A stretch of DNA of 64,000 nucleotides, from positions 124,001-188,000 of the forward strand of contig NZ_JAPZDS010000006.1 of NCBI RefSeq assembly GCF_029813115.1. The letters are read 5' to 3'. A program made the position numbers and the translations under genes. The notes under the pieces were generated by a model. The model was not told the origin of the DNA. It searched no databases and saw only the letters and a program-made list of their open reading frames with translations. The stretch is from Aureimonas sp. SK2 (GTDB lineage Bacteria; Pseudomonadota; Alphaproteobacteria; Rhizobiales; Rhizobiaceae). Of the stretch, positions 9,138 to 23,670 are shown one piece after another (the first letter of the stretch is position 1; each line of letters begins with the position of its first letter).

Positions 9138-10520
9138 ATGACCTCCCGCCTCCTGTCCGAATCCTCCGCCGCACGCCCCGTCCATCTCGCGAGCGAAGGG
9201 GAGGCGGGAAGCCTGCCGGCGCCGCTCGGAGCCTGGGCGGGCGCCACCGGCTGGAAGGCGGGCGCCGGCAGCGTGCTCGTCGCGCCGGGGTCTGATGGGA
9301 CGCTCGGCGCGGCCGCCCTCGGCCTCGGCGGGTCGGGGGCGAGCCTTGCGGAGCGCTCCCTCCTGACCGGCGCGCTGGCGACGGCGTTGCCCGCCGGCGA
9401 CTGGACCCTTTCCGACCCGCACGGGCTCGACCCGGACCTGGCCGCGCTCGGCTTCCTCATGGGTGCCTACCGCTTCGACCGCTACCGCTCCAAGCCGGCG
9501 GAGGAGGGCGCCCGCTTGGTCCTGCCGAAGGGCGCCGGCGCGGCGCGGGTCCGGCTCCAGGCGGAGGCCGTCGCGCTGGTGCGCGACCTCGTCAACACGC
9601 CGACCAACGATCTCGGGCCGGACGGGATCGAGGCCGCCGCACGATCGCTGGCCGCGGAGTTCGACGCCGAGGTCTCGGTGACCGTCGGCGACGACCTTCT
9701 CGCCGCCAACTTCCCGATGATCCACGCCGTGGGCCGGGCGAGCGCCGTCGCCCCGCGCCTGATCGACATCCGCTGGGGCGCCGCCGACGCCCCGCGCGTC
9801 ACGCTGGTCGGCAAGGGCGTCGCCTTCGACACGGGCGGGCTCGACATCAAGCCGGCCTCGGGCATGCTTCTGATGAAGAAGGACATGGGCGGGGCGGCCA
9901 ACGTGCTGGGGCTCGCGCGCATCGTGATGGGCGAGGGGCTGCCCGTCCGCCTGCGCGTCCTGATCCCGGCGGTCGAGAACGCGATCGCCGGCAACGCCTT
10001 CCGGCCGGGCGACGTCCTCCAGAGCCGCGACGGCAAGACGGTTGAGATCGGCAACACCGACGCGGAAGGACGCCTCATCCTCGCCGACGTCCTGTCGCTC
10101 GCCGATGAGGAAGCGCCCGAGATCCTGATCGACATGGCGACGCTGACCGGCGCCGCGCGCGTCGCGCTCGGGCCGGACCTGCCACCCTTCTACACCGACG
10201 ACGAGGCGATGGCGTCCGCCATCGCGGCGGCGAGCGTCGCCGTCCACGACCCGCTCTGGCGCCTGCCGCTCTGGAAGCCCTATGCCAGGAACCTCGCCTC
10301 CAAGATCGCCGATATCAACAACGTCACCACCGACGGCTTCGCGGGCTCGGTGACCGCCGCCCTGTTCCTCCAGGGCTTCGTGTCGAAGGCGAAATCCTGG
10401 GTCCATTTCGACGTCTTCGGCTGGCGTCCGCAGGCCGGCCCGACCGGCCCCGTGGGCGGCGAGGCGCAGGCGATCCGAGCGCTCGCGCGCGTTCTCATGG
10501 AGCGTTATCCGTCCTCTTGA
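9138..10520 (+). CDS. Leucyl aminopeptidase family protein (M17)
   Basis: Cytoplasmic di-metal aminopeptidase that removes N-terminal residues from peptides. The 460-residue protein has a variable N-terminal domain (1-160) and the M17 catalytic domain. Visible catalytic features are VGKGVAFDTGG (about 222-232, Lys and Asp of the active site), KKDMGGAANVLG (about 248-259) and the signature NTDAEGRL (306-313). It is shorter than classical PepA (about 500) and fits the PepB-like or uncharacterised M17 branch common in rhizobia. It is divergent from tadD across about 100 nt. The MarR and NlpC/P60 genes downstream may belong to one peptide and cell-wall turnover unit. Confidence 0.92.
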   Translation: MTSRLLSESSAARPVHLASEGEAGSLPAPLGAWAGATGWKAGAGSVLVAPGSDGTLGAAALGLGGSGASLAERSLLTGALATALPAGDWTLSDPHGLDPDLAALGFLMGAYRFDRYRSKPAEEGARLVLPKGAGAARVRLQAEAVALVRDLVNTPTNDLGPDGIEAAARSLAAEFDAEVSVTVGDDLLAANFPMIHAVGRASAVAPRLIDIRWGAADAPRVTLVGKGVAFDTGGLDIKPASGMLLMKKDMGGAANVLGLARIVMGEGLPVRLRVLIPAVENAIAGNAFRPGDVLQSRDGKTVEIGNTDAEGRLILADVLSLADEEAPEILIDMATLTGAARVALGPDLPPFYTDDEAMASAIAAASVAVHDPLWRLPLWKPYARNLASKIADINNVTTDGFAGSVTAALFLQGFVSKAKSWVHFDVFGWRPQAGPTGPVGGEAQAIRALARVLMERYPSS

Positions 10521-10591
10521 AACGGCCTCATTTAGGCTGTCCTCTGACCGAACCGGCGCCGAAACGAGGGCCGGATTCGGTGGGGGCCGGA

Positions 10592-10942
10592 ATGGGTATC
10601 GAAATTCGCCCGGCGCAGGCGCTTCGCCTGCTCCACGGCAACGCGTTGAAGCAGACGCGCGAGGCGGGGCCGGACCTCACCACGCGCCAGACCGCCATCC
10701 TCCTCACCGTCTATCTCGAGCCGCCGCCGCACACCGTGCGAGGCCTCGCCAGCAAGCTCAAGGTGACCAAGCCCGTGGTCACGCGCGCGCTCGACACGAT
10801 GGGACGCCTCGAACTCCTCGAGCGGCGGCGCGACCCGGCGGACCTTCGCAACGTGCTCGTGCGCCGCACGGTGAAGGGCAGCCTCTTCGTCTCGCAGATG
10901 GCCGACCGGCTGGTGGACGAGGCGGGGGGGCTCGCCCGATGA
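10592..10942 (+). CDS. Short MarR-family transcriptional regulator
   Basis: A winged-helix DNA-binding protein of 116 residues. Helix-turn-helix and wing residues are visible in LASKLKVTKPVVTRALDTM (about 53-71) and the following RRRDPADLRNVLVRRT (the MarR wing with Asp-Arg). The ATG at 10592 has a strong GGGGG purine tract 7-11 nt upstream. The frame also reaches a TTG at 10517 that overlaps the upstream stop, but that start has no SD. Its stop overlaps the next start (ATGA), so it is made together with the NlpC/P60 enzyme and may control this small operon. The ligand is unknown. Confidence 0.85.
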   Translation: MGIEIRPAQALRLLHGNALKQTREAGPDLTTRQTAILLTVYLEPPPHTVRGLASKLKVTKPVVTRALDTMGRLELLERRRDPADLRNVLVRRTVKGSLFVSQMADRLVDEAGGLAR

Positions 10943-11802
10943 CCGCCGCCCTCGACCGCCGCCTCCACGCCATACGCCCCGATCTGGCCGACGAGCGGCT
11001 GCGCGGGCGGGTGACGGCCGACCGTTTCGTGCCGGGCGAGGCGGCTCGTGTCGACGCGCCGCTCGCCGATCTGCGCCGTCATCCGTCTCCGGACGCGCCG
11101 CTGGAAACGCAGGCGCTTTACGGCGAGGCCGTGACGGTCTTCGAGGAAACGCCGGAAGGCTGGTGCTGGGTGCAACTCGCCCGCGACCGCTATGTCGGAT
11201 GGATGCCGACGGCCGCTCTCCTCGCCGGGCCGGCGCCGGAGGCGACGCATCGCGTGCGCGTCGCCCGGACCTTCGTGTTCCCCGGACCCGACATCAAGCG
11301 GCCGCCGATGCGCGAACTGACCCTCGGCGCGGAAGTCGCGGCGCGCGGAGAGGCGAGCGATCCCAACGCGACCTATGCGCTGATCGCCCCGTTCGGCGCC
11401 GTCGTGGTCCAGCATCTGGAGCCGATCGATGCCCACGCGGCCGACTTCGTTTCGGTCGCGGAAGGGTTTCTCGGCGTGCCCTATCTCTGGGGCGGCAAGT
11501 CGCCGTCCGGCATCGACTGCTCCGGGCTGGTGCAGCTCTCGCTGGGGCTCGCCGGCCTCGACGTGCCGCGCGACACCGACCTCCAGGGCGCCTCGATCGG
11601 CCGGGAGATCCCAGCCGGTGAACCGCTTCGCCGAGGCGACCTCGTGTTCTGGCGCGGCCATGTCGGTATCATGTGCGACGGCGAGACGCTGCTCCACGCC
11701 AACGCTCATCACATGATGACCGCCGCCGAGCCGCTGGCCGACGTGGAGGCGCGGGCGCTCGCCAGAAATTCGCCCGTCACCGTCCGCCGGCGCCTCGGCT
11801 GA
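10939..11802 (+). CDS. NlpC/P60 family peptidoglycan endopeptidase
   Basis: Cys peptidase expected to cut gamma-D-Glu-meso-diaminopimelate bonds in peptidoglycan peptides. The 287-residue protein has two SH3-like stretches (about 45-95 and 100-150, with GWCWVQLARDRYVGWMP) and a C-terminal NlpC/P60 domain. The catalytic Cys194 is in SGIDCSGLVQ, His241 is in GHVGIM, and the third polar residue is probably His253 in LLHANAHH. No signal peptide is visible, so it may act on cytoplasmic muropeptides during recycling (inference). It starts within the stop of the MarR gene. Confidence 0.92.
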   Translation: MTAALDRRLHAIRPDLADERLRGRVTADRFVPGEAARVDAPLADLRRHPSPDAPLETQALYGEAVTVFEETPEGWCWVQLARDRYVGWMPTAALLAGPAPEATHRVRVARTFVFPGPDIKRPPMRELTLGAEVAARGEASDPNATYALIAPFGAVVVQHLEPIDAHAADFVSVAEGFLGVPYLWGGKSPSGIDCSGLVQLSLGLAGLDVPRDTDLQGASIGREIPAGEPLRRGDLVFWRGHVGIMCDGETLLHANAHHMMTAAEPLADVEARALARNSPVTVRRRLG

Positions 11803-12744
11803 TCAGTAGCCGGCGCTGCGGTCCACGACGTTATCCAGTGCTTCGCCCCGCCGATGCGCCGCGATCTGCGCCATGATGATGGGCGCGAGCGCCGCCGGAT
11901 CCGACGAAGCTGCGGCGTGGGGCGTCACGAACACGCGCGGGTGGCGCCAGAGCGGGCTGTCCGAGCTGAGCGGCTCGCGCTCGAAGACGTCGAGCGAGGC
12001 TTCCATTAGCCGTCCGTCGTTCAGCGCGCGCAGGATCGCCGAATCCATCTGCAGTCCGCCGCGCCCGGCATTGATCAGGGAGGGCGTGCCGAGCGGCGTC
12101 TCGCGCTTCAGCTTAGACAGGAAGCCGTCGTCGATCATGCCGCGCGTGTCGGGTGTCAGCGGAAGGAGCACGACCAGGATGTCGGCCCGTCCGAGCACCG
12201 CCTCGAGTCCTGCCTCGCCGTCGAAGCACTCGACGCCTTCGATCGTCTTAGGCCGCCGGCTCCAGCCGGACACGCGGAAGCCGAGGGTCTTCAGCTTCAG
12301 CGCCGCGTCGCGGCCGAGCTCGCCGAGGCCAAGAATGCCGACCTCGATTTCGGACGCCGCCGGCTGGCGGCGCTCGTTCCAGATGCGGACGGCCTGCTGC
12401 GCCCGGTAGGTCATCCCCCGGCGGTGGTGATCGAGCACCCGCCAGACGACGTATTCGCTCATCCGGGCGGTGAGGTCGTCGGCCACGATGCGCAGGATCG
12501 GCACGTCGGGCAGCGTCCTATCCTGCAGGATATGGTCGACGCCCGCGCCGAGCGAGAAGACCGCTGGCAGATTCGGCAGGTTGGAGAGGACGCCCGGCGG
12601 CTGCTTCCAGACCACGGCATAGTCGATGCTCTCGTCCGCCGCGCTTGCGGGGCGCAGGACGATGGACTCCTCCGGTGCGGCGGCGAGCAATGCCTCCATC
12701 CAGCGCGAGGGATCGAAGCCGGTGACGGAAAGAAGGATGCTCAA
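11803..12744 (-). CDS. GhrA-like glyoxylate/hydroxypyruvate reductase
   Basis: D-2-hydroxyacid dehydrogenase that reduces glyoxylate or hydroxypyruvate with NAD(P)H. The start is taken as TTG at 12744, whose TTGA overlaps the stop of the upstream Nudix gene and gives 313 residues, the normal GhrA length. The ATG at 12813 would add residues unlike the family. Rossmann motif GILGLGELGRDAA is near residue 138. Catalytic residues are the Arg of INAGRGG, the Glu of DVFEREPL and the His of TPHAAA. It is the last gene of the minus-strand yej run; its link to peptide uptake is unclear. Confidence 0.9.
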   Translation of the reverse strand: MSILLSVTGFDPSRWMEALLAAAPEESIVLRPASAADESIDYAVVWKQPPGVLSNLPNLPAVFSLGAGVDHILQDRTLPDVPILRIVADDLTARMSEYVVWRVLDHHRRGMTYRAQQAVRIWNERRQPAASEIEVGILGLGELGRDAALKLKTLGFRVSGWSRRPKTIEGVECFDGEAGLEAVLGRADILVVLLPLTPDTRGMIDDGFLSKLKRETPLGTPSLINAGRGGLQMDSAILRALNDGRLMEASLDVFEREPLSSDSPLWRHPRVFVTPHAAASSDPAALAPIIMAQIAAHRRGEALDNVVDRSAGY

Positions 12745-13397
12745 GATGCGGTGTCCGTTTGAATGGAATCGGCAAGAAGCTTGGCACGCGCGCGGCCGTG
12801 GCGCGCGAACCAATGTGTCGCTGCCACCAGAAACCCGTTCTGCACCGCACCCCGGTCCACCGCCTCCAGAAGGTCTTCGAAGGGAGCTGGGATGACGAGG
12901 ATGTCCTCGTCTTCGTCGGCCTTGCCGCCGTGTCCGGACAGTTTGGCCGTGTCCACGATGGCGAGGAAAACCATGGCCAGCTCGTCGGTGAGACCGGGCG
13001 TCGAAAGGACCGAGAAGCAGTGCCCGACGGCGCCGGCGACGAGGCCGGTTTCCTCCGTCAGCTCGCGCGCGGCACCGGCTGCCGGATCCTCGCCATCGTC
13101 GATGCCGCCGGCCGGCAGCTCGAGCGGCGCGGCGTGGGGCGTGGCGAGCGCGGCGCCGATGCGGAACTGTCGGATCACCACAATTGCGTCCCGCGCGGGA
13201 TCATAAGGGATCACAACGGCGCACCGGGCGCCGCGCACGATCTCGCGCCGCACGCGCGCCGGCTGCGCATCGCCGAGCGGCGCGTGGCTCAGCGTGAGGA
13301 CGTCGAGCGGGCGGAACCCGTCGAAGACGCGGCGCTCCTCGCGGATTTCGAAGTCGAGCGCCTGGTCCTCCAAACGCGTGCGATAGCTGCCGCTCAT
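12741..13397 (-). CDS. Nudix hydrolase (ADP-ribose pyrophosphatase-like)
   Basis: Hydrolyses a nucleoside diphosphate linked to another moiety; the family branch suggests ADP-ribose or a sugar nucleotide. The 218-residue protein contains a perfect Nudix box, GX5EX7REUXEEXGU, running from GGIDDGE to RELTEETGL at about residues 96-119. A beta-rich N-terminal part includes VIPYDPARDAIVVIRQFR, typical of NudF/ADPRase proteins. Its start overlaps the upstream ATPase stop (ATGA), and its stop overlaps the reductase start (TTGA), so all three are translationally coupled. Confidence 0.9.
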   Translation of the reverse strand: MSGSYRTRLEDQALDFEIREERRVFDGFRPLDVLTLSHAPLGDAQPARVRREIVRGARCAVVIPYDPARDAIVVIRQFRIGAALATPHAAPLELPAGGIDDGEDPAAGAARELTEETGLVAGAVGHCFSVLSTPGLTDELAMVFLAIVDTAKLSGHGGKADEDEDILVIPAPFEDLLEAVDRGAVQNGFLVAATHWFARHGRARAKLLADSIQTDTAS

Positions 13398-15049
13398 TGC
13401 GCCACGTCCGCAGCGCCTGCGGCCTCGATGCGAAAGGCCGCCGCCATCAGGGCCTTGGTGTAGTCGCTCTTCGGGCGCTCGAAGATCTCCTCCGAGGTGC
13501 CCCGCTCCACGACCTCGCCGCCGCGCATGACGATCACCTCGTTGGCGAGCGCGCGCACGACCTTGAGATCGTGGCTGATGAAGAGATAGGCGAGGTCGTG
13601 TTTCTTCTGGAGGTCGCGGAGGAGGTCCACCACCTGCGCCTGAACGCTCATGTCCAGCGCCGAGGTCGGCTCGTCCAGCATGACGAAGCGTGGGTTGAGC
13701 ACCATGGCGCGCGCGATGGCGACGCGCTGGCGCTGGCCGCCGGAGAACTCGTGCGGGTAGCGGAAGCGGGTGGCGGGGTCGAGACCCACTTCGGTGAGCG
13801 CCGAGACCACGCGCGCGTCGCGCTCCGCGGCCGAGAGCTTCGGCTGGTGGACCTGCAGCCCTTCCGCCACGATGTCGGCGATCGGCATGCGGGGGCTCAG
13901 CGAGCCGTAGGGGTCCTGGAACACGATCTGGATGCGGTCGCGCCAGTCGCGCATCTCGCGCGAGGACTTGGTGTCGATCCGCTCCCCGTCGAAGCGGATC
14001 TCGCCTTCGCTCGCGATCATGCGGCAGAGCGCGAGGCCGAGCGTCGTCTTGCCCGAGCCCGATTCCCCGACGACGCCCACCGTCTGGCCCGCGCGCACGG
14101 CGATATCGATGCCGTTGACGGCCTTCACGTGATCGGTCACGCGGCGCAGGAGGCCCGTTCGCACGGGGAACCAGACCTTCACGCCCTTGCCCTCCATCAC
14201 CAGCGGCGCGTTGGCGTTGGCGGCGGGCGGGCGGCCCTTCGGCTCGGCGGCCAGAAGGTGCCTGGTATAGGCGTGCTGCGGGTTGGCGAAGATCTCTGCG
14301 GTCGGGCCGGTCTCGACGATCTCACCCCGATACATCACGCAGACTCGGTCGGCGATGCGCCGGACGATCCCGAGATCGTGGGTGATGAAGAGCAGCCCCA
14401 TGTCGCGCTCCGCCTGGAGGCGCTTCAGGAGCTCCAGGATCTGCGCCTGCACCGTCACGTCGAGCGCCGTCGTCGGCTCGTCGGCGATCAGGAGGTCGGG
14501 CTCGTTGGCGAGCGCCATCGCGATCATCACGCGCTGGCGCTGGCCGCCCGAAAGCTGGTGAGGATAGGAGCCGAGCCGCTTTTCCGGCTCGCGGATGCCC
14601 ACTTGATGGAGAAGTTCGAGCGTGCGGTCGCGCGCGGCCTTGTCGGACAGGCCGCGATGGATCTTCATCACCTCGCCGATCTGCCGTTCGATCGTGTGGA
14701 GCGGATTGAGCGAACTCATCGGCTCCTGGAAGATCATCGAGATCCTGTTGCCGCGAACGCCGCGCAGTTCCTTGTCGGGAGCGGCGATGAGGTCGCGCCC
14801 CTCGAAAAGCACGGCGCCGCCCGGGTGGCTCGCGGCGGGATAGGGCAGGAGCTTCAGGATCGACAGCGCCGAGACCGACTTGCCCGATCCCGACTCGCCG
14901 ACCAGCGCCACCGTCTCGCCCTTGTGGATCGCAAAGGACACACCCTTCACGGCGTGGCTGGTCTCGCCGTTCTGGTGGAAAGCGACCTGAAGGCCGCGCA
15001 CGTCGAGAAGCGGGGCGTCGGCGTCGGGGCGGGGGGCGGGTTGGCTCAA
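13394..15049 (-). CDS. yejF: Peptide ABC transporter double ATPase (YejF-like)
   Basis: Supplies ATP hydrolysis for the Yej-type oligopeptide importer. The 551-residue protein holds two complete ABC domains. Walker A GESGSGKS and signature LSGGQRQRV are in the first (about 15-270). Walker A GESGSGKT and signature FSGGQRQRV are in the second (about 290-535). Walker B segments are LLIADEPT and FVMLDEPT. The start is a TTG with GAGAGGA about 10 nt upstream, 15 nt after the metal exporter gene. One protein carrying both ATPases is the normal YejF arrangement. Confidence 0.94.
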
Positions 15050-15064
15050 GGGGCGATGGTCCTC

Positions 15065-16138
15065 TCAGGCCGGACGGGGAAGCGCGCCGTGGGAACGGTC
15101 GTGCCCGTGCGCGTGGTCGTGGTGATGATGATCGTGATGATGCGCATGGCCGTGGTCGTGCGCATGGTGGTGATGGGCGTGACCGCCCTCGTGCCCATGA
15201 TCGCCGCCGCAGGCCGCCCCCGCATCGGCGCAGTGGCCGTGTTCGAGTTCCACGGTGGCGTGATCGATAGAGAAGGCCGAGCGCAGTTCCGCCTTCACGC
15301 GCCGGACGACGTCCATGCCGTCGCTGCCTTCGGGCACACAGACATGCAGCGTCGCGGCCCGGCGGCGCGGCGTGATCATCCAGACATGAACGTGATGCAC
15401 GTCCTCGATCCCCGGAACGCTCGTCCGCAGGTGCCGGCCCATTTCGGCTCCGTCGACGCCGGCGGGGGCGCCTTCGAGCAGGACCTGTGCGGACTCGCGC
15501 ACGAGGCGCCAGGCATTGGCGAGGATCAGGAGGCAGACGAGGACGGACAGGATCGGATCGATCTGCGTCCAGCCCGTCGCCATGATGACCAGCGAGGCGA
15601 CGATCGCGGCCACCGAGCCGAGGAGATCGCCGAGGACATGCAGCAGCGCGCCGCGCATGTTGAGGTCTTCCTTGTCCCCGCCGTGGAGGACGAAGAAGGC
15701 CGCGATGTTGACGAGAAGGCCGCCGATCGCGACCGCCAGCATCGGCCCGGCGAGAATCTCAACGGGATCGGCGAAGCGCCGCCACGCCTCGTAGATGATG
15801 ACGGCGGTGATGCCGAAGAGGACGAGGCCGTTGGAAAACGCGACCAAGACGCCCAGCCGGTCGTAGCCGTAGGTCCGCCTGGCATCGGCCGGACGCTGCG
15901 CCAACCGCGCCGCGGCGAAGGCGAGGACGAGGCCGGCGAAGTCCACGAACATGTGCCCGGCGTCGGCGAGAAGCGCGAGCGACCCCGAGATCAGGCCACC
16001 CGCGACCTCCGCCAGCATGAAAAGGCCGGTAAGGGCCGCCGCGATGCCGAGCCGCCTGGTGCTCGCATGCGCGGCGTGGTCGTGGCCGGAATGATCGTGG
16101 CCGCCGTGGTCGTGGGAATGGCCGTGATGGGCGCTCAT
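15065..16138 (-). CDS. Cation diffusion facilitator (Zn/Co/Cd-type) metal exporter
   Basis: Inner-membrane proton-coupled exporter of divalent metal ions. The 357-residue protein has a His-rich N-terminus (HGHSHDHGGHDH), six membrane helices (about 28-215) with the two metal-site motifs DAGHMFVD and HVLGD, a cytoplasmic domain (about 220-300) and a second, very His-rich tail (about 310-350). The family position resembles ZitB/CzcD/DmeF; the metal cannot be decided by eye. It sits between yejE and yejF with gaps of only 7 and 15 nt, so it must be cotranscribed with the peptide importer, which is unexpected. Confidence 0.93.
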   Translation of the reverse strand: MSAHHGHSHDHGGHDHSGHDHAAHASTRRLGIAAALTGLFMLAEVAGGLISGSLALLADAGHMFVDFAGLVLAFAAARLAQRPADARRTYGYDRLGVLVAFSNGLVLFGITAVIIYEAWRRFADPVEILAGPMLAVAIGGLLVNIAAFFVLHGGDKEDLNMRGALLHVLGDLLGSVAAIVASLVIMATGWTQIDPILSVLVCLLILANAWRLVRESAQVLLEGAPAGVDGAEMGRHLRTSVPGIEDVHHVHVWMITPRRRAATLHVCVPEGSDGMDVVRRVKAELRSAFSIDHATVELEHGHCADAGAACGGDHGHEGGHAHHHHAHDHGHAHHHDHHHHDHAHGHDRSHGALPRPA

Positions 16139-16145
16139 GGCAGTC

Positions 16146-17369
16146 TCAACGGAAGCTCTTGCGGGGGTCGAACGCGTCGCGCACCGCTTCGCCGACGAAG
16201 ACGAGGAGCGAGAGCATCAGGGACAGGACCACGAAGCCGGAGATGCCGAGCCAGGGCGCCTGAAGGTTGTTGCGCCCCTGCGCCAGGAGTTCGCCGAGCG
16301 AGGGCGAGCCCGGCGGCAGGCCGAAGCCGAGGAAGTCGAGCGAGGTGAGCGTCGTAATCGAGCCGTTCAGGATGAAGGGCAGGAAGGTCAGCGTCGCGAC
16401 CATGGCGTTGGGCAGGAGGTGCCGGGCCATGATCGTCCAGTCGCCGACGCCGAGCGCGCGGGCCGCGTTGACATATTCGAAGTTGCGCGCGCGCAGGAAC
16501 TCGGCGCGCACTACGCCGACGAAGGCCACCCACGAGAACAGGAGCATGATGCCGAGCAGGATCCAGAAGCCGGGCGGCAGGATCGCGGCGACGATCAGGA
16601 GGAGGTAGAGGACCGGGATCGACGACCAGATCTCGATAAAGCGCTGGAAGAGAAGGTCCACCCAGCCGCCGAAATAGCCCTGGACGGCGCCGGCGAAGAC
16701 GCCGATGACCGCCGAGGCGGCGGTGAGGATCAGGCCGAACAAGACGGAGATGCGGAAGCCGTAGATGAGCCGCGCCAGCACGTCGCGCGCCTGGTCGTCG
16801 GTGCCGAGCCAGTTCCAGTTGCCGACGACGCAGTTGGGGTCCTCGACGCCCAGCGGATAGCGCGCGCAGCGCTCCTCCTTGGAAAAGGTCCAGGAGGGCG
16901 GGGCGGGGGCCGGCGTCGGAATTTCGTTGTTGACGCTCTGGTAGGAATAGCGGATCGGCGGCCAGACCATCCAGCCGTTGGCCGCGATCTCGTCCTGGAT
17001 GAACGGGTCGCGGTAGTTGGTGACCGGCAGGAACCCGCCGAAGACCTCTTCCGGGTAGTCGGTGAAGATCGGCGTGTAATATTCGTTCTTGTAGGAGATC
17101 AGGATCGGCTTGTCGTTGGCCACGAACTCGGCGAACAGCGTCACGACGAATAGGATCGAAAAGATCCAGAGCGACCACCAGCCGCGCCGGTTGGCCTTGA
17201 AGTTCTGCCAGCGGCGCTGGTTGAGCGGCGACAGGCGGGGCGGGCGCTCCATCGCCACCACCGGCGGCGCGTTCTGCACCACACCGCTCGCGCCCCCTTG
17301 CGCCTCGCGCAGCGTCGCGGGCTCGGGCGGGCGATCCTTGGCGTTGCGATCCTCGACGGTGTCGGTCAT
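16146..17369 (-). CDS. yejE: Peptide ABC transporter permease (YejE-like)
   Basis: Second membrane subunit of the Yej importer. The 407-residue protein has a Pro-rich cytoplasmic N-terminus, one early membrane helix (about 60-80), a long periplasmic region and a five-helix BPD_transp_1 core (about 200-400). The EAA loop reads NAARALGVGDWTIMARHLLPNAM. The ATG at 17369 has GGGAGGT about 8 nt upstream. It is longer than E. coli YejE (about 340) mainly at the N-terminus. It is followed 7 nt later by the metal exporter gene and preceded by a 63-nt gap containing a duplicated tail of yejB. Confidence 0.93.
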   Translation of the reverse strand: MTDTVEDRNAKDRPPEPATLREAQGGASGVVQNAPPVVAMERPPRLSPLNQRRWQNFKANRRGWWSLWIFSILFVVTLFAEFVANDKPILISYKNEYYTPIFTDYPEEVFGGFLPVTNYRDPFIQDEIAANGWMVWPPIRYSYQSVNNEIPTPAPAPPSWTFSKEERCARYPLGVEDPNCVVGNWNWLGTDDQARDVLARLIYGFRISVLFGLILTAASAVIGVFAGAVQGYFGGWVDLLFQRFIEIWSSIPVLYLLLIVAAILPPGFWILLGIMLLFSWVAFVGVVRAEFLRARNFEYVNAARALGVGDWTIMARHLLPNAMVATLTFLPFILNGSITTLTSLDFLGFGLPPGSPSLGELLAQGRNNLQAPWLGISGFVVLSLMLSLLVFVGEAVRDAFDPRKSFR

Positions 17370-17373
17370 CGGA

Positions 17374-17430
17374 TCAGACCTCCCGCCGCATGGGCCGGAC
17401 GGAAAACCGCTTCGCACTTTTCCTGGCCAT
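17374..17430 (-). other. 18-residue basic mini-ORF between yejB and yejE
   Basis: An ATG 2 nt after the yejB stop opens a frame of 18 codons (MARKSAKRFSVRPMRREV) ending in TGA 4 nt before the yejE start codon. Its last four codons plus stop copy the yejB end, as part of a 15-bp direct repeat. Placement after a stop codon would allow termination-reinitiation. Whether it is translated is unknown; it could equally be spacer left by a small duplication. Confidence 0.3.
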
Positions 17431-17447
17431 GCTCAGACCTCCCGCCG
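17374..17447. repeat. 15-bp direct repeat flanking the yejB-yejE gap
   Basis: TCAGACCTCCCGCCG occurs at 17374-17388 and again at 17433-17447. Read on the minus strand, each copy is CGG CGG GAG GTC TGA. The upstream copy is the natural end of yejB; the downstream copy supplies the GGGAGGT Shine-Dalgarno of yejE. This looks like a local duplication that gave yejE its own ribosome-binding site. Confidence 0.75.
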
Positions 17448-18518
17448 CTCGAAATCGATGCGCGGATCGATCCAGGTGTAGGTGAGGTCGGAGATCAGCG
17501 TCGTCAGGAGCCCGATCAGGGAGAAGATGTAGAGCGTGGCGAAGACCACCGGATAGTCCCGCTTGTAGATGCTCTCGAAGGAGAGGAGCCCCAGCCCGTC
17601 CAGCGAGAAGATGGTCTCGATCAGGAGCGAGCCGGCGAAGAAGGCCGAGATGAAGGCGCCCGGAAAGCCCGCGACGATGATCAGCATCGCATTGCGGAAG
17701 ACGTGGCCGTAGAGGACGCGCCGCTCCGTCAGGCCCTTGGCGCGGGCGGTGGTCACGTACTGCTTGCGGATCTCGTCGAGGAAGGAGTTCTTGGTCAGGA
17801 GCGTCGTCGTGGCGAAGGCCGAAAGCGACAGCGCGATGAGCGGCAGCGTCAGGTGCCAGAAATAGTCGACGATCCGCTCGGGCCAGGAGAGTTGCGCCCA
17901 GTTGTCGGAGGTGAGGCCCCGCAGCGGGAACCAGTCGAAGAACGAGCCTCCGGCAAAGAGCACGATCAGGAGAACCGCGAACAGGAAGCCCGGGATGGCA
18001 TAGGCGACGATGATGACCGCGCTGGTCCAGGTATCGAAGCGCGAGCCCTCGTGCAGCGCCTTGCGGATTCCGAGCGGAATCGAGATCGCGTAGGACAGGA
18101 GCGTGATCCAGAGGCCGAGCGAGATCGAGACGGGCAGCTTCTGGATGATGAGATCGACCACGGTGGCGTTGGAGAAGAAGCTCGTGCCGAAGTCGAAGCG
18201 GGCGTAGTTCCAGATCATCTCGCCGAAGCGCTGCCAGGCCGGCTTGTCGAAGCCGAACTGCTCCTCCAGCCGCTTGATGAACTCGGGGTCCAGCCCCTGC
18301 GCGCCGCGATAGCCCGACGTCTCGCCGCTCTGTGCGGCCATGTCGCCACCCCCGCCCCCGAGGCGGTCGGCGGCGCCGCCACCCTGGCCTTGGAGACCGG
18401 CGATGACCTGCTCCACCGGGCCGCCCGGCGCGAACTGGATGACGACGAAGGACACGAGCATGATGCCGAGCAGGGTCGGGATCATCAGGAGAAGGCGTCG
18501 GAGGATGTAGGCTGCCAT
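17433..18518 (-). CDS. yejB: Peptide ABC transporter permease (YejB-like)
   Basis: First membrane subunit of the Yej oligopeptide importer in the inner membrane. The 361-residue protein starts with [19 protein letters not shown], followed by the family APGGPVEQ segment and a Gly-rich loop (about 40-75) that is also variable in E. coli YejB. The transmembrane core has an EAA loop, [20 protein letters not shown]. Length and C-terminal [11 protein letters not shown] match E. coli YejB (about 364). It lies 41 nt after the TAT-type binding-protein gene. Confidence 0.95.
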
Positions 18519-18559
18519 TCACCGGTCCCGTTGCGTCAAAGCCCGAGGCCTCGGCCGGA

Positions 18560-20440
18560 TCAAGCCCGGCCGGCCGCCTTGGCCTTGGATTCGTCGTACC
18601 ACCAGAGCTGTTCCACCGGGAAGCCGTAATCGGGCTTGGTGGGCGCCATGCCGAACATGTCCCACCAGGCGACATTGTGGCCCTTGGCGTGGATGTTGGG
18701 GATCCAGTCGAGCCGCCAGCGCAGCACCCGGTCGAGGACGCGCATCAGAAGCGTCAACTCGTCGCGGCTCTTCGCCTCGCCGATGCGGGCGAGGAGGGCG
18801 TCCACGGCGGGGCTCGCCATGCCGGGATAGTTGTAGGAACCCTGGCGGTCGCGCGAGTCCGAGCCGAAGAAGAGCGAGAACCCCTCGCGTGTCGGCGTGC
18901 CGTTCAGCCCGAAACGGCAGAGGATCATGTCGAAGTCGAAGCAGCCGAGGCGATCCTGGTACTGCGCGGCGTCCACCACGCGCATGGAAGCATCGACGCC
19001 GAGAAGCTTCATGTTCTCGACCATCTTGCCGTAGACGCGGCCCTGTTCGGGATCGTTCAGCATGTATTCCAGGCGGAAGGGCTGGCCGGCCTCGTTGACG
19101 AGAGCCGAACCCTTGCGCACCCAGCCCGCCGCCGCAAAGAGCTCCGACGCCTGCCGCAGGATCGCGCGGTCGCGGCCCGAGCCGTCCGTCACCGGCTGGG
19201 TCCAGACCTCGCCGAAGGCCTCGGGCGGCAGATCGGCGCGCAGCGGCTCCATCACCGCCAGTTCCTCCGGGCTCGGCGTGCCCGTGGCGACATAGTCCGA
19301 CAGCTCGAAGGGCGACTGCGAATGCTCGCGCAGCCCGAACAGGAGGTTGGCGTTGGTCCACTCGAAGTCGAAGCACAGGTTGATCGCCCGCCGCACGCGC
19401 GCGTCCGCGAATTGTGGCCGGCGCTGGTTCAGCGCCCAGCACTGGAAGTTCGGCCACTTCTCCTCCGGCAGGGTCCCGCGCTTCACGCGCCCGTCCTGCA
19501 CCGCCGGAAAATTGTATTCGCTGGCCCAGGCGCGTGTCGTGAACTCCTCGCGATAGGTCACGTCGCCCTTCTTGAAGGCCTCAAGCGAGGCTTGCCTGTC
19601 GCGGAAGCACTCGACGCGGATCGTCTGGAAATGGCCGAGGCCGCGGGCGAAGGGCATGTCACGACCCCAATAGTCCGCGCGCTTCTCGTATTCGATGAAG
19701 CGCCCGCCGACATAGCGCCCGACGGTCCAGGCCCCCGAGCCCGGAATCACGTCGAAGCCCCCTTGCGTGAAGGGGCGGTCGGCGAAGAAGGCGGCCGGCA
19801 CGATCGGCATCGACAGGGTGGCGAGCGCCGTAGGCACGGTCTGCCGGCCCGAGAAGACGATGCGCACCGTGCGCTCGTCCTCGGCGACGACCTCCACCAC
19901 CTCGACGAGCTGAATGGCCATCGAGGGATGCCCCTCGGTCTTCAGCTTGTCGTAGGAGAAGACGACGTCGGCGGCGGTCACCGGCGCGCCGGTCGAAAAG
20001 CGGGCTTCGGGGCGCAGCTTGAAGGTGAAGCGGTTGCCGTCGGCCGAGACGGAGACGGTCTCGGCCAGCAGGCCGTAGAGCGCATCGGGCTCGTCGAGGG
20101 TCGAGAGCATCAGCCCTTCGTAGAGCATCTCCATGCGCGGCGGCGCATTGCCCTGAAGGATCAGCGTGTTGAACGTGTCGAACGTGTCGGGCGCCTGGTT
20201 GAAGTACCAGGACGGCACGGTGAAGGTGAAGCGCCCGCCCTGCGGCGCGTCGAGGGTCGCATAGTCGAAATACTTATAGTCCGCCGGGTATTTCAGGTCG
20301 CCGAAGGCGGAGATGCCGTGGAGCGGCTTATCCGCCGGATTATCGGCGAAGGACAGGCGGGGCAGGGCGACTGACGCCGCAGCGCCGAGCGCGAGCTTGC
20401 CGAAGTGGCGTCGGCTGATGCGGATGAAGCTTTCGGTCAT
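18560..20440 (-). CDS. Peptide ABC transporter substrate-binding protein, TAT-exported (YejA-like 1)
   Basis: Periplasmic SBP_bac_5 family protein that binds oligopeptides for the Yej importer. The 626-residue product has a twin-arginine signal, SRRHFGK at about residues 9-15, then a hydrophobic stretch ending in a LSFADN cleavage region. Family segments DYKYFDYATLDAPQGG and EGLMLSTLDEPDALYGLLAE mark the YejA type. It is a paralogue of the gene just upstream (7-nt gap) but uses a different export route. The pair may widen the substrate range (inference). Confidence 0.93.
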   Translation of the reverse strand: MTESFIRISRRHFGKLALGAAASVALPRLSFADNPADKPLHGISAFGDLKYPADYKYFDYATLDAPQGGRFTFTVPSWYFNQAPDTFDTFNTLILQGNAPPRMEMLYEGLMLSTLDEPDALYGLLAETVSVSADGNRFTFKLRPEARFSTGAPVTAADVVFSYDKLKTEGHPSMAIQLVEVVEVVAEDERTVRIVFSGRQTVPTALATLSMPIVPAAFFADRPFTQGGFDVIPGSGAWTVGRYVGGRFIEYEKRADYWGRDMPFARGLGHFQTIRVECFRDRQASLEAFKKGDVTYREEFTTRAWASEYNFPAVQDGRVKRGTLPEEKWPNFQCWALNQRRPQFADARVRRAINLCFDFEWTNANLLFGLREHSQSPFELSDYVATGTPSPEELAVMEPLRADLPPEAFGEVWTQPVTDGSGRDRAILRQASELFAAAGWVRKGSALVNEAGQPFRLEYMLNDPEQGRVYGKMVENMKLLGVDASMRVVDAAQYQDRLGCFDFDMILCRFGLNGTPTREGFSLFFGSDSRDRQGSYNYPGMASPAVDALLARIGEAKSRDELTLLMRVLDRVLRWRLDWIPNIHAKGHNVAWWDMFGMAPTKPDYGFPVEQLWWYDESKAKAAGRA

Positions 20441-20447
20441 CGCGCCC

Positions 20448-22421
20448 TCAAGGCTTGGCGGGCGGGATGGCGGGGGCCGCCGCCGGGTCGGGCTCCGCCG
20501 CGGCCGCCTGGTCGGCCGGCGTGTTCACTGGCACCTCGCCCTTCACCCACCAGGAGAACGGGTCGATGCCGGCATAGGCCGGGCGCTTCTCCGGCATGCC
20601 GAACTTGTCCCACCAGGCTAGCCAGATGTTCGGGTTGTGGTACTGCGGCACGATGTAGAAGTTCCACAGGAGCACCCGGTCGAGCGCGTGCGTGGCGGCG
20701 ACGAGGCTCTCGCGGTCCGGCGCGTAGATGATCTTCTCGATGATCGCGTCGACGGCCGGGTTGCGGATGCCCGGCGAGTTGCGGCTGCCGGGCTGGCTTG
20801 CGGCGGCGCTGGACCAGAAGTCTCGCTGCTCGTTGCCGGGCGAGAGCGATTGGAGCATCAGGTCCGTCACGATGTCGTATTCGAAATTGTCCGTCAGAGC
20901 CTGGTACTGCGAGGCGTCGACGATGCGCGTCGAGGTCTCGATGCCGAGCCGCTTCAGCTGGTTGGCATAGGGGTCGATCACGCGGCTGGACGACGGGTCG
21001 GCGGCAAGGAACTCGATGCGGAACGGCTCGCCGCGCGCGTTGACGAGCTGGGTGCCCTGGCGCTTCCAGCCGGCCTGCGTCAGAAGCTCGAAGGCTTCGC
21101 GCAGATAGGTGCGCTCCGCGTTGGGCTGGCTGTAGTCCGGCAGGGTGAAGGGCGTCGTGAAGACCTCGGGCGGGATCTGGTCGCGCAAGGGCTCCAGGAT
21201 CTTCAGTTCGGCCTCGCTCGGCAGGCCGGAGGAGGCGAGTTCGGTGCCCTGGAAATAGCTCGTGGTGCGTGCGTACTGGCCGTAGAAGAGCGAGCGGTTC
21301 ATCTCCTCGAAATTGTAGGCCAGCGTCAGCGCCCGGCGCGTGCGCGGGTCGGCGAACTTGTCGCGCCGTGTGTTGAGCACGAAGCCCTGCATCGGCTCGC
21401 CGCTTTCGGAGGGGATCGCTTCCTTCTTCACGCGCCCATCGCGGAAGGCGGGGAAGTCGTAGCCCTGCGCCCAGCGGCCGGCGCTGTTTTCGGACCGATA
21501 GTCGGAGAAGCCGCCGCGCTTGAAGGCTTCCCAGCCGGCGCTCTGGTCGCGGAAATAGGTGTAGCGGATCTCGTCGTAATTGTAGCGGCCGACGCGGGGG
21601 CCTTTGTTCGCCGCCCAGTAGTCCGGCACGCGCTCCCAGGTGACGGTGGAGCCGGGCTGATAGGCCTTCACGCGGTAGGGGCCGGATCCGACGGGGATCT
21701 CCAGCGTCGGGTTGTCGATGTCGCGCTTTCGTCCTTGCGCGTCCGTGCCTTCCCAGAAGTGCTTGGGCAGGACCACGAGGTCGCCCATGATGTTGGGCAG
21801 CTCGCGATTTCCAGTCTGGTTGAAACGGAAGGTGACCTCGCGTTCGCCGGTGGCCTCCGCGCTCGTCACGTTGTGGTAGTAGTTGGCGTAGAGCGGCGAC
21901 AGGCGCGTCACCGTTTGGAAGGTCCAGATCACGTCCTCGGCCGTGATGGGCTGGCCGTCGTGGAATTTGGCGTCCGGATCGAGCCGGAACGTGACGGACG
22001 AGAAGTCGGCGGGATAGCGCATCGCTTCGGCGATCAGGCCATGACTGACCCCCGGCTCGTCGGGCGCCTGGTCCATCAGCGTGTCGTAGGCGATGCCGCC
22101 GCCGAACGCGAGGAAGCCGGCCGCCGGCGTGCCGCGCACGGGGAACGGGTTGAAGCTGTCGAACGTGCCGGCCGCCTGGAGGTTGAGGCGACCGCCCTTG
22201 GGCGCGTCTGGATTCACGTAGTCGTAGTGCCGGAAGTCGTTGCCGTATTTCGACGGGCGGATCAGCGACGACCATGTGCGCCATTCGCCCGCTTCCTGCG
22301 CCGGAGCGCTGGCAGTGGCCGGCGCCGGCGTGCCCTGCGCGAAGGCGGGGGCGCCGGCGAGGGCGAGGAGAGCGGTCAGGGCGGACAGGGCGCGCGAGAC
22401 TGGCGGCAAATCGATCTCCAT
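20448..22421 (-). CDS. Peptide ABC transporter substrate-binding protein, Sec-exported (YejA-like 2)
   Basis: Second SBP_bac_5 protein of the Yej importer, 657 residues. A Sec signal peptide (about 1-28, ending GAPAFAQG) precedes an Ala/Pro linker and the mature domain. The mature domain contains DFRHYDYVNPDAPKGGRLN and ITAEDVIWTFQTV, aligned in position with the paralogue downstream. It is the first gene of the minus-strand run that continues to 11,803. No strong SD precedes the ATG, so the start could be slightly different. The about 200 nt upstream hold the cytochrome terminator and presumably the operon promoter. Confidence 0.92.
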   Translation of the reverse strand: MEIDLPPVSRALSALTALLALAGAPAFAQGTPAPATASAPAQEAGEWRTWSSLIRPSKYGNDFRHYDYVNPDAPKGGRLNLQAAGTFDSFNPFPVRGTPAAGFLAFGGGIAYDTLMDQAPDEPGVSHGLIAEAMRYPADFSSVTFRLDPDAKFHDGQPITAEDVIWTFQTVTRLSPLYANYYHNVTSAEATGEREVTFRFNQTGNRELPNIMGDLVVLPKHFWEGTDAQGRKRDIDNPTLEIPVGSGPYRVKAYQPGSTVTWERVPDYWAANKGPRVGRYNYDEIRYTYFRDQSAGWEAFKRGGFSDYRSENSAGRWAQGYDFPAFRDGRVKKEAIPSESGEPMQGFVLNTRRDKFADPRTRRALTLAYNFEEMNRSLFYGQYARTTSYFQGTELASSGLPSEAELKILEPLRDQIPPEVFTTPFTLPDYSQPNAERTYLREAFELLTQAGWKRQGTQLVNARGEPFRIEFLAADPSSSRVIDPYANQLKRLGIETSTRIVDASQYQALTDNFEYDIVTDLMLQSLSPGNEQRDFWSSAAASQPGSRNSPGIRNPAVDAIIEKIIYAPDRESLVAATHALDRVLLWNFYIVPQYHNPNIWLAWWDKFGMPEKRPAYAGIDPFSWWVKGEVPVNTPADQAAAAEPDPAAAPAIPPAKP

Positions 22422-22567
22422 CTGGCAGGACGGTGGGGCGAGCCCGATGCCGAACCCCGCCCGAGCTTTGTGGCCTTCCTCGGGCGAAGGGCCGAAGTGA
22501 CGAAAGTGTAAGATTCGACGGGCCGGTGTCCACCCGCGAGGAAGCGGGAACGATAGCGTGAAACGAA

Positions 22568-22595
22568 GAAAGCCGGACCTCCCGGCCCGGCTTTC
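22568..22595 (-). terminator. Terminator of the cytochrome c gene
   Basis: GAAAGCCGG (22568-22576) pairs with CCGGCTTTC (22587-22595), a 9-bp stem with a 10-nt loop, 28 nt after the cytochrome stop. On the minus strand it is followed by the T-rich TTCGTTT. It separates the cytochrome gene from the peptide importer operon, which starts 147 nt further on in the same direction. Confidence 0.65.
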
Positions 22596-22623
22596 CCGAT
22601 GTCTCGCGATCGCGGAGGCGACC

Positions 22624-23670
22624 TTACTGGGCCGGCGCGGCCGGAGCCGGGACCGCGGGCGCCGCCGGGGCGGGAGCCGCAGGTGCTGCCGGAGCGGGTT
22701 CCGCCGGAGCCGGAGCGGCGGGTGCCGCCGGCGGAGTCGCTTCCGGCGTGGCGGGGGCCGGGGTCTGCTGTGGAGCCTGAGTGCCGGGCTGCGAGGGGGC
22801 CGCCTGGCCCGGCTCGGTCGGCGGCACCGGAGCGCCGGCCGGCGCGCTGGTGGCGTTGTCGCCCGTGGCCGGAACGGTGCCCGAGGGCGGCGCGGTCGGA
22901 GCGGCGCCCGTGGTCTGGTCCGTCGTGCCCGCGCCCTGAGGCTGGCTCACGGCGTCGCCCGGCAGGGCGTTGGAATTCGTGGTGGCGCTCGGCGCCGTCA
23001 CGGCCGGAGCCGCCGCATCGCCAGCCGGTGCGGCCGCGCCTTCGGCCGGAGCCGCAGCGCCTTCGGCCGGAGCCGCACCCTCTGCCGCCGCTTCGCCGCC
23101 GGCCGGCGCGCCGGCATCGGGAGCCGGCAGCGGGGGCGGGTTGTCCGAGAGCGTGCCGAGATAGGCGAGAAGATCGGCACGCTCCTGGTCGCGCGCGATG
23201 CCGGCGAAGCCCATGGCCGTGCCCTGGATGTACTGCTTGGGGCCGTGCAGGAAGTGGTTCAGGTGATCCCAGTCCCAGACCACGGTCTTTCCTTCAGAGA
23301 ATTCGGTCATGGCGGCCGAATAGCTGAAGCCCTCGTGCGAGGCGATCGGGCGGTTCACGATGTCCCAGAGATCGGGGCCGACCTTGTTGGGGCCGCCCTT
23401 CTCGCCCGAATGGCAGGCTTGGCAGCGCTTGAAGATGTTGGCACCCGCCTCGGCATTGGCGGTCTGCATGAGCTGGCCGACCGGGGTCACCTCGTTGGCG
23501 GCGGGCGCGGCGCCCCCGCCGGCCGGCGCGTCGGGCACGGCGATCGCGAAGCCCGGGGTCTCCGGCACCTCGGAATGGAAAATGCCTTCGGCCAGTAGGC
23601 TGCCGCCGAACAGAACGAACACGACGCCGAGCAGGGCGCCGAAGATCTTGTTGGCCTCGAACGAATTCAT
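22624..23670 (-). CDS. Membrane-anchored cytochrome c (CycM/c552-type) with long Ala/Pro tail
   Basis: Electron carrier expected to link the bc1 complex to a terminal oxidase. The 348-residue protein has an uncleaved N-terminal anchor (about 9-30). A class I cytochrome c domain follows, with CQACH at 83-87 and the probable axial Met153 in [11 protein letters not shown]-terminal tail of about 170 residues made mainly of Ala, Pro, Gly and Thr then follows. Alphaproteobacterial CycM proteins normally end soon after the heme domain (around 180-190 residues), so the tail is the odd feature. It is divergent from the kdsB-pheA frame. Confidence 0.93.
23036..23077. repeat. Tandem 21-bp repeat in the cytochrome tail
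   Basis: Two adjacent perfect copies of a 21-bp unit beginning GCGCCTTCGGCCGGAGCCGC lie at 23036-23056 and 23057-23077. On the coding strand they encode a repeated Ala-Ala-Pro-Ala-Glu-Gly-Ala pattern. This suggests the tail grew by slippage. Confidence 0.8.

Follow-up and report, generated by a model that had tools for sequence, protein, structure and literature searches.

Why does a gene for a divalent-metal exporter lie within the operon of a peptide importer? We addressed this question in a 64,000-nucleotide stretch of the genome of Aureimonas sp. SK2 (contig NZ_JAPZDS010000006.1, positions 124,001 to 188,000), referred to here as the window, in which a CDF exporter gene (15065..16138, minus strand) is located between yejE and yejF. 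The initial annotation had placed the gene there with gaps of 7 and 15 nt, and we confirmed these coordinates. The reading frame is intact (357 aa, ATG start), the yejE stop codon lies at 16146, and yejF begins with TTG at 15049. The 7-nt yejE/CDF boundary (16139..16145, minus strand) is where antitoxin and PIN genes sit in relatives, and the 15-nt CDF/yejF boundary (15050..15064, minus strand) carries GAGG ahead of the yejF start. The minus-strand order is yejA1-yejA2-yejB-yejE-CDF-yejF-NUDIX, tightly packed, with a gene for a GhrA-like 2-hydroxyacid dehydrogenase (11803..12813, minus strand, start uncertain) close behind as the probable end of the run. Within it, yejA1 (20448..22421) and yejA2 (18560..20440) encode the first and second substrate-binding proteins (Pfam SBP_bac_5). 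YejB (17433..18518; NCBIfam 524 bits, cut-off 445) and YejE (16146..17417, start codon uncertain; NCBIfam microcin C ABC transporter permease, 457 bits, cut-off 439) are both permeases of the microcin C type, and the best NCBIfam match of the double ATPase (13394..15049) is YejF, at 772 bits against a cut-off of 834. The gene for a NUDIX hydrolase (12741..13397, ADP-ribose pyrophosphatase-like) overlaps yejF by 4 nt, and a NUDIX gene lies 3' of yejF in the loci of all five named relatives as well. The window has no contiguous yejA-B-E-F, since the CDF gene splits E from F as it does in 16 of 21 genomes of the genus. Because yejE-CDF-yejF recurs in those 16 genomes and in five named records, namely Aureimonas ureilytica (two), A. 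leprariae, A. psammosilenae and Consotaella salsifontis, an assembly fault is ruled out.

Cotranscription of the exporter with the importer had been called almost certain. A promoter-like site with a weak consensus match (TGGACA-16-TACACT, 22505..22532, minus strand) lies upstream of yejA1, and a terminator-like site (22570..22588, minus strand) precedes the operon. In a pattern scan of positions 11700-22800 we found no minus-strand promoter- or terminator-like site from yejB to yejF, while yejA2 contains one of each on that strand (19540-19511 and 18888-18874, respectively). The scan returned 2 promoter-like sites where 0.7 were expected and, on both strands, 3 terminator-like sites where 4.9 were expected, and such pattern matches are weak evidence. 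Because the genes are tightly spaced and such sites are lacking between yejB and yejF, cotranscription of the CDF gene with the yej operon is well supported, though at the level of sequence rather than as the near certainty first claimed. A promoter hidden in the 3' end of yejE was also considered and is not supported: in 13 genomes of the genus, third-position identity over its last ten conserved codons ranked 43rd of 237 such stretches. Upstream of the operon lies a gene on the minus strand (22624-23670) for a cytochrome c-like protein with a CxACH motif, identified by eye, and a long Ala/Pro-rich tail.

We found that the exporter contains the Pfam domains Cation_efflux (154 bits, cut-off 26.6) and ZT_dimer (42 bits, cut-off 26.7), both above gathering score. 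Its ends are rich in histidine, as had been noted, with 10 His among the first 25 residues and 23 among the last 60, and the length of the C-terminal tail differs widely among orthologs. These ends suggest a capacity for metal buffering. Against the NCBIfam equivalog for ZitB the protein scores 332 bits, below the cut-off of 408, which makes it a relative of ZitB and not ZitB by that rule. Its best relatives with a solved structure are human zinc transporters, ZnT8 first. An HxxxD motif is present in both TM2 (H62/D66) and TM5 (H167/D171), and both motifs align with ZnT8; the TM2 motif is invariant in the five natural sequences aligned, the window's protein and four orthologs. A pair of HxxxD motifs marks a zinc-type site, while FieF has DxxxD in TM2. 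The predicted substrate is therefore likely zinc, which would be transported by a proton-driven mechanism of the ZitB/ZnT type.

The importer itself belongs to a group with described roles in peptide uptake. Published reports describe import of muropeptides by Agrobacterium YejBEF with the binding protein YepA (PMC9790009), the gene order yejA1-A2-B-E-F in Brucella (PMC4994006), and entry of phazolicin, a peptide antibiotic, into Sinorhizobium through Yej (PMC10128002). Adjoining the operon in the window, genes for an M17 aminopeptidase, a MarR regulator and an NlpC/P60 protein with a dipeptidyl-peptidase SH3 domain occupy 9138-11802 on the plus strand. Aminopeptidase and NlpC/P60 genes are beside yej in all five named loci, and a MarR gene in three. 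The neighborhood may possibly serve muropeptide import and processing. Overall, the neighbors of yej fit peptide or muropeptide use, and none points to metals.

We then asked how widely the exporter occupies this place. The yejE gene was found in 156 of 161 family genomes and in 79 of 81 genomes of an order sample, and we examined 82 of the former, largely closest first, and 38 of the latter. The 141 loci read represent 137 genomes after removal of four duplicates whose sequence identity was checked (L011, L014, L119 and L126), and omission of L148 and L191, in which no yejF was found, left 135 scorable genomes of Hyphomicrobiales. The yejE/yejF boundary is empty in 75 of these, holds the CDF gene in 21, PIN genes followed by the CDF gene in 6, PIN genes of a kind that we call type B in 17, a type A pair in 14 and other sequence in 2; since near relatives are over-represented, these are not the boundary frequencies of the order. 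The exporter is thus present at the boundary in 27 of the 135 genomes and absent from it in 108, while PIN toxin-antitoxin genes are present in 37 (31 of them without the exporter), two of these as remnants. The initial annotation had held that yej operons usually lack such a gene, which is accurate across the scored genomes, but in this clade its presence is the rule. It had also held that finding the exporter in one place family-wide, with a known unrelated role, would speak against its reading. This applies only in part: within the clade the place is shared, and the role is deduced from family membership.

Several boundaries need comment. The 17 type B genomes include the remnants in G062 and G205, and the search seeds found no partner in G220, G188 and G197; an open frame is present in place of the partner in G188 and G197, and the PIN gene of G220 has no recognized partner. 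G250 (L188) was counted as carrying the exporter, although its frame appears interrupted in the assembly and gave no CDF match at 1e-60. At the G062 boundary (L112) there is also a short His-rich frame, seen by eye only, which we do not claim as a scar of the exporter gene. The boundary in G240 (L175) spans about 460 bp with no recognized gene pair and has, by eye, long G/C-rich stretches resembling inverted repeats. Outside the order, yejE and yejF abut in 27 of 28 genomes, and G292 has about 400 bp between them; this comparison covers 30 loci from a class search that gave a match in 68 genomes.

Among the three boundaries compared, insertion appears specific to this one. Among 40 genomes in which the upstream part of the operon was read, yejE/yejF is occupied in 23, while inserts above 400 bp are found in none of 40 at yejB/yejE and none of 38 measured at yejA/yejB, two genomes having no detected yejA. 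Some boundary states were already known when these control genomes were selected; this bears on the 23 but scarcely on the zeros. The type B toxin is also nearly confined to this place: a profile matched 20 times in 30 genomes, 18 times at yejE/yejF and twice at other places, and the 12 genomes lacking a boundary copy, the window's own among them, gave no match. The profile was built from junction copies, and leave-one-out profiles, in which each of the 20 junction toxins scored 92-163 bits, answer part of that bias. In a class sample, at least eight type B matches occur in 7 of 289 genomes, with at most 13 candidates scored per genome so that matches may be missed; the best, in G219 of the same order, is at yejE/yejF, and the other seven, in six genomes, have no yej gene within the flanks looked at. 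Type A toxins at the junction score 182-219 bits and the other matches listed in those genomes at most 126; type A, unlike type B, has many relatives elsewhere.

Both off-boundary type B matches in the set of 30 genomes are again intra-operonic, lying between two subunit genes of acyl-CoA carboxylase. There, a FitA-like antitoxin and PIN pair (about 1486-2198 in L339 of G040; 1228-1914 in L340 of G121) sits between carboxyltransferase and biotin carboxylase genes, the flanks having been scanned for L340 only. It is a second example, after yej, of a metabolic operon that houses such a pair.

The two kinds of occupant in relatives differ in their protein families. Type A pairs are VapBC modules: two antitoxins match PSK_trans_fac and one toxin matches PIN above Pfam cut-offs, and the rest of the 14 loci were assigned by similarity. 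In the scanned loci, type B toxins match PIN with scores exceeding the Pfam cut-off, and an alignment of 20 such toxins shows the acidic residues characteristic of PIN to be invariant or almost so. The type B partner is small, mostly 72-92 aa (starts uncertain, one longer), and matches no Pfam family over cut-off in any of the seven scanned; a EEAVARVRALRDEWD-like motif closes 16 of the 18 partners listed, for which the ending had been one ground of selection. We found that the toxin genes are closely joined to the gene that follows. With start codons assigned by frame, all 14 type A pairs have a toxin stop that shares nucleotides, as TTGA or GTGA, with a start codon of the yejF frame; among type B toxins without the exporter, 12 of 15 overlap the yejF start at their stop codon (exceptions L117, L122 and L190). 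In all six genomes that carry both cargoes, the stop codon of the toxin gene forms ATGA with a start in the CDF frame; the toxin of one of these six, G057, looks truncated.

In 12 of the 14 type A loci we saw by eye a ATGGTATAAT...TTCTACCAT-like element (GGTA...TTCTACC) close behind the yejE stop. Loci with the element include L129, L131, L132, L137, L139, L140, L214, L219, L220, L224 and L227; the element departs from this form in L205 and L218, and an exact TATAAT is present in six type A loci. This element is probably the operator and promoter of the type A pair. A like element precedes the type B pair in L130, and its left half only is seen in L203.

On a tree of the operon proteins, the boundary states require at least 36 changes, with 7 for presence of the exporter, 10 for type A and 20 for type B; an earlier tree with poorer yejF pieces gave 33 and is superseded by this one. 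Distances among CDF proteins follow those of yej (Mantel r 0.74, 0 of 5000 shuffles as high), and type B and type A distances also correlate with operon distances (r 0.48, 0 of 5000, and r 0.53, 7 of 5000, respectively). Since occupant distances track the operon, the occupants have largely been inherited with it or exchanged among near relatives, and not at random. By our data, the yej exporter arrived long ago, is spread across the clade and has mostly been passed on together with the operon. All yej-linked CDF proteins except that of G208 are set apart by a branch of modest support (73/89), while the protein of G208, a genome of another family of which G250 is the second genome, groups with a non-yej CDF (98/87). 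A second insertion at the boundary in G208 is therefore likely on this tree; one origin for all yej-linked CDF proteins including G208 is not rejected (p-AU 0.065), yet the tree favors two. Horizontal replacement of the exporter in G006 (L020), which grouped with another genus in a quick tree, was considered and dropped, as grouping with Aureimonas is not rejected (p-AU 0.12).

The order of events may be read from the genomes that hold both cargoes, all six of which have yejE-antitoxin-PIN-CDF-yejF, and from scars. Between yejE and the CDF gene of G042 we found an antitoxin remnant, whose score of 72 compares with a mean of 32 for shuffled sequences, none of 200 of which scored as high. Candidate scars of the exporter gene were not significant in G010 (7 of 200 shuffles as high) or G040 (55 of 200). 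We infer that the pair was in place, that the CDF gene was inserted after it and that the pair was then lost. The scar of G042 indicates loss of a pair in one genome, and that single clear scar does not establish that the pair came before the exporter.

Is the exporter tied to the importer elsewhere? Close CDF relatives were matched in 53 family genomes, 42 with the gene away from yej, 10 at yej and 1 unplaced. A metal regulator as the usual neighbor of these non-yej relatives is not general: in nine loci, with the nearest one or two genes scanned, we found a GNAT acetyltransferase gene in four, DUF1178 in one, no Pfam match in three and, in G001, an MFS gene preceding and an ArsR-type regulator following the CDF gene. 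The GNAT genes adjoin the CDF gene on the same strand (L286, L288, L292 and L295). Within the genus, five genomes lack the yej-linked exporter but keep yej; G001-G003 have another CDF (50% identity) elsewhere, and G003 and G005 have a ZntA-type pump. Such a pump (TIGR01512, E <= 1e-100) is present in 4 of 21 genus genomes, including 2 of the 16 with the yej-linked exporter. G010 has neither the yej-linked exporter nor another CDF or ZntA-type match at the thresholds used, so that members of the genus can do without the yej exporter. Besides this gene, the window's genome contains three other CDF genes. In that genome, most zinc efflux probably runs through the yej-linked exporter, which would be made together with the importer and has no metal regulator adjacent to its gene.

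Taken together, we propose, with a probability of roughly 0.7, that the window carries a zinc exporter with a general export role in a reusable cargo slot at yejE/yejF, read from the yej transcript. In Hyphomicrobiales this slot would accept two kinds of PIN toxin-antitoxin pair, the CDF exporter, or both in series. The exporter would have entered between a toxin gene and yejF in an ancestor of the Aureimonas/Consotaella group, and the pair would later have been lost from most lineages of that group, including the window's genome, leaving yejE-CDF-yejF. Expression of the exporter would thereby fall under the yej operon promoter and be tied to the importer, and metal export would need no particular connection to peptide import. 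The initial annotation had offered removal of metal that enters with peptides as one reason for the arrangement, and the fullest form of that idea is that the exporter clears zinc or another divalent metal arriving with peptides or muropeptides via YejABEF and must be produced jointly with the importer. Retention of the gene at the boundary in most of the genus and in several genera is consistent with such coupling, as are the His-rich ends with their suggested metal buffering, and a NikA-like score of one binding protein hints at metal-related relatives, albeit far below cut-off (84 versus 393 bits). Set against this, most close relatives of the exporter reside away from yej, four fifths of the scored yej operons do without it at the boundary, toxin-antitoxin genes occupy the same boundary, and five genus genomes keep yej without it. 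We consider coupling quite unlikely; metal entering with peptides is conceivable as a reason but is neither supported nor needed by the data. Because PIN genes use the same boundary, CDF relatives are common elsewhere and most operons lack the gene, simple insertion, also suggested at the outset, fits better than metal removal, although the insertion is not a one-off but old and clade-wide.

In its plainest form, insertion would mean that a metal gene arrived by chance and was tolerated because it shares the operon's strand, the boundary itself having no relevant property. Intact flanks, the absence by eye of a recognized mobile element at the boundary and the existence of five genus genomes without the exporter agree with this. 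The two other boundaries, empty in the matched set where yejE/yejF is occupied in 23 of 40, already disfavor chance, and two kinds of PIN pair and the CDF gene, the last probably twice, have entered at the same boundary, making plain chance quite unlikely in our view. A further explanation is that genes in the slot guard the operon: toxin-antitoxin pairs, or the CDF as an important exporter, would penalize loss of the importer, for example where yej mutants are favored by peptide antibiotics whose uptake depends on Yej. The overlaps of toxin stops with starts in the yejF or CDF frame and the near confinement of the type B PIN family to the boundary favor guarding, and Yej is described in Sinorhizobium as importing a peptide antibiotic (PMC10128002). 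Yet 75 of the 135 genomes have no cargo at all, and most type A pairs have their own conserved promoter-like element and so are not wholly tied to the yej promoter; guarding is therefore unlikely. Tentatively, a long-lived intra-operon slot might select cargo that punishes importer loss, with the boundary-specialized PIN family as the guard and the zinc exporter having taken over in the Aureimonas group, and this too we regard as a minority possibility.

The proposed slot, with its nearly confined PIN family, surprises us more than the exporter itself, and it may act as a shelter, a shared promoter or a guard. Most described insertion hotspots lie between operons or at tRNA genes. Here, one boundary inside a widely conserved transporter operon has been refilled with differing cargo across an order while two other boundaries have not, which raises the question of whether intra-operon cargo protects the operon or merely uses its transcription. 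It also offers a simple account of the window's unusual gene order and cautions against reading a metal-peptide function from adjacency alone. We found no mention of the boundary or its cargo in the open-licence papers searched, mostly as listings, which is weak evidence of absence.

Compared with known systems, the window's operon shares its gene order and two binding proteins with Brucella YejABEF (PMC4994006) and its importer type with Agrobacterium YejBEF-YepA (PMC9790009), and differs from both by the CDF gene between yejE and yejF. The type A occupants of relatives share with VapBC modules a PSK_trans_fac antitoxin and a PIN toxin, as predicted from their sequences; they differ in their place at yejE/yejF and in a toxin stop that overlaps the yejF start, and they are absent from the window's operon. 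With ZitB/ZnT (SLC30) transporters the exporter has in common Cation_efflux and ZT_dimer, the paired HxxxD site and a His-rich N end. It differs from them in scoring below the ZitB equivalog cut-off, in its long His-rich C-terminal tail, and in the location of its gene, among those of a peptide importer in a run that lacks a metal regulator.
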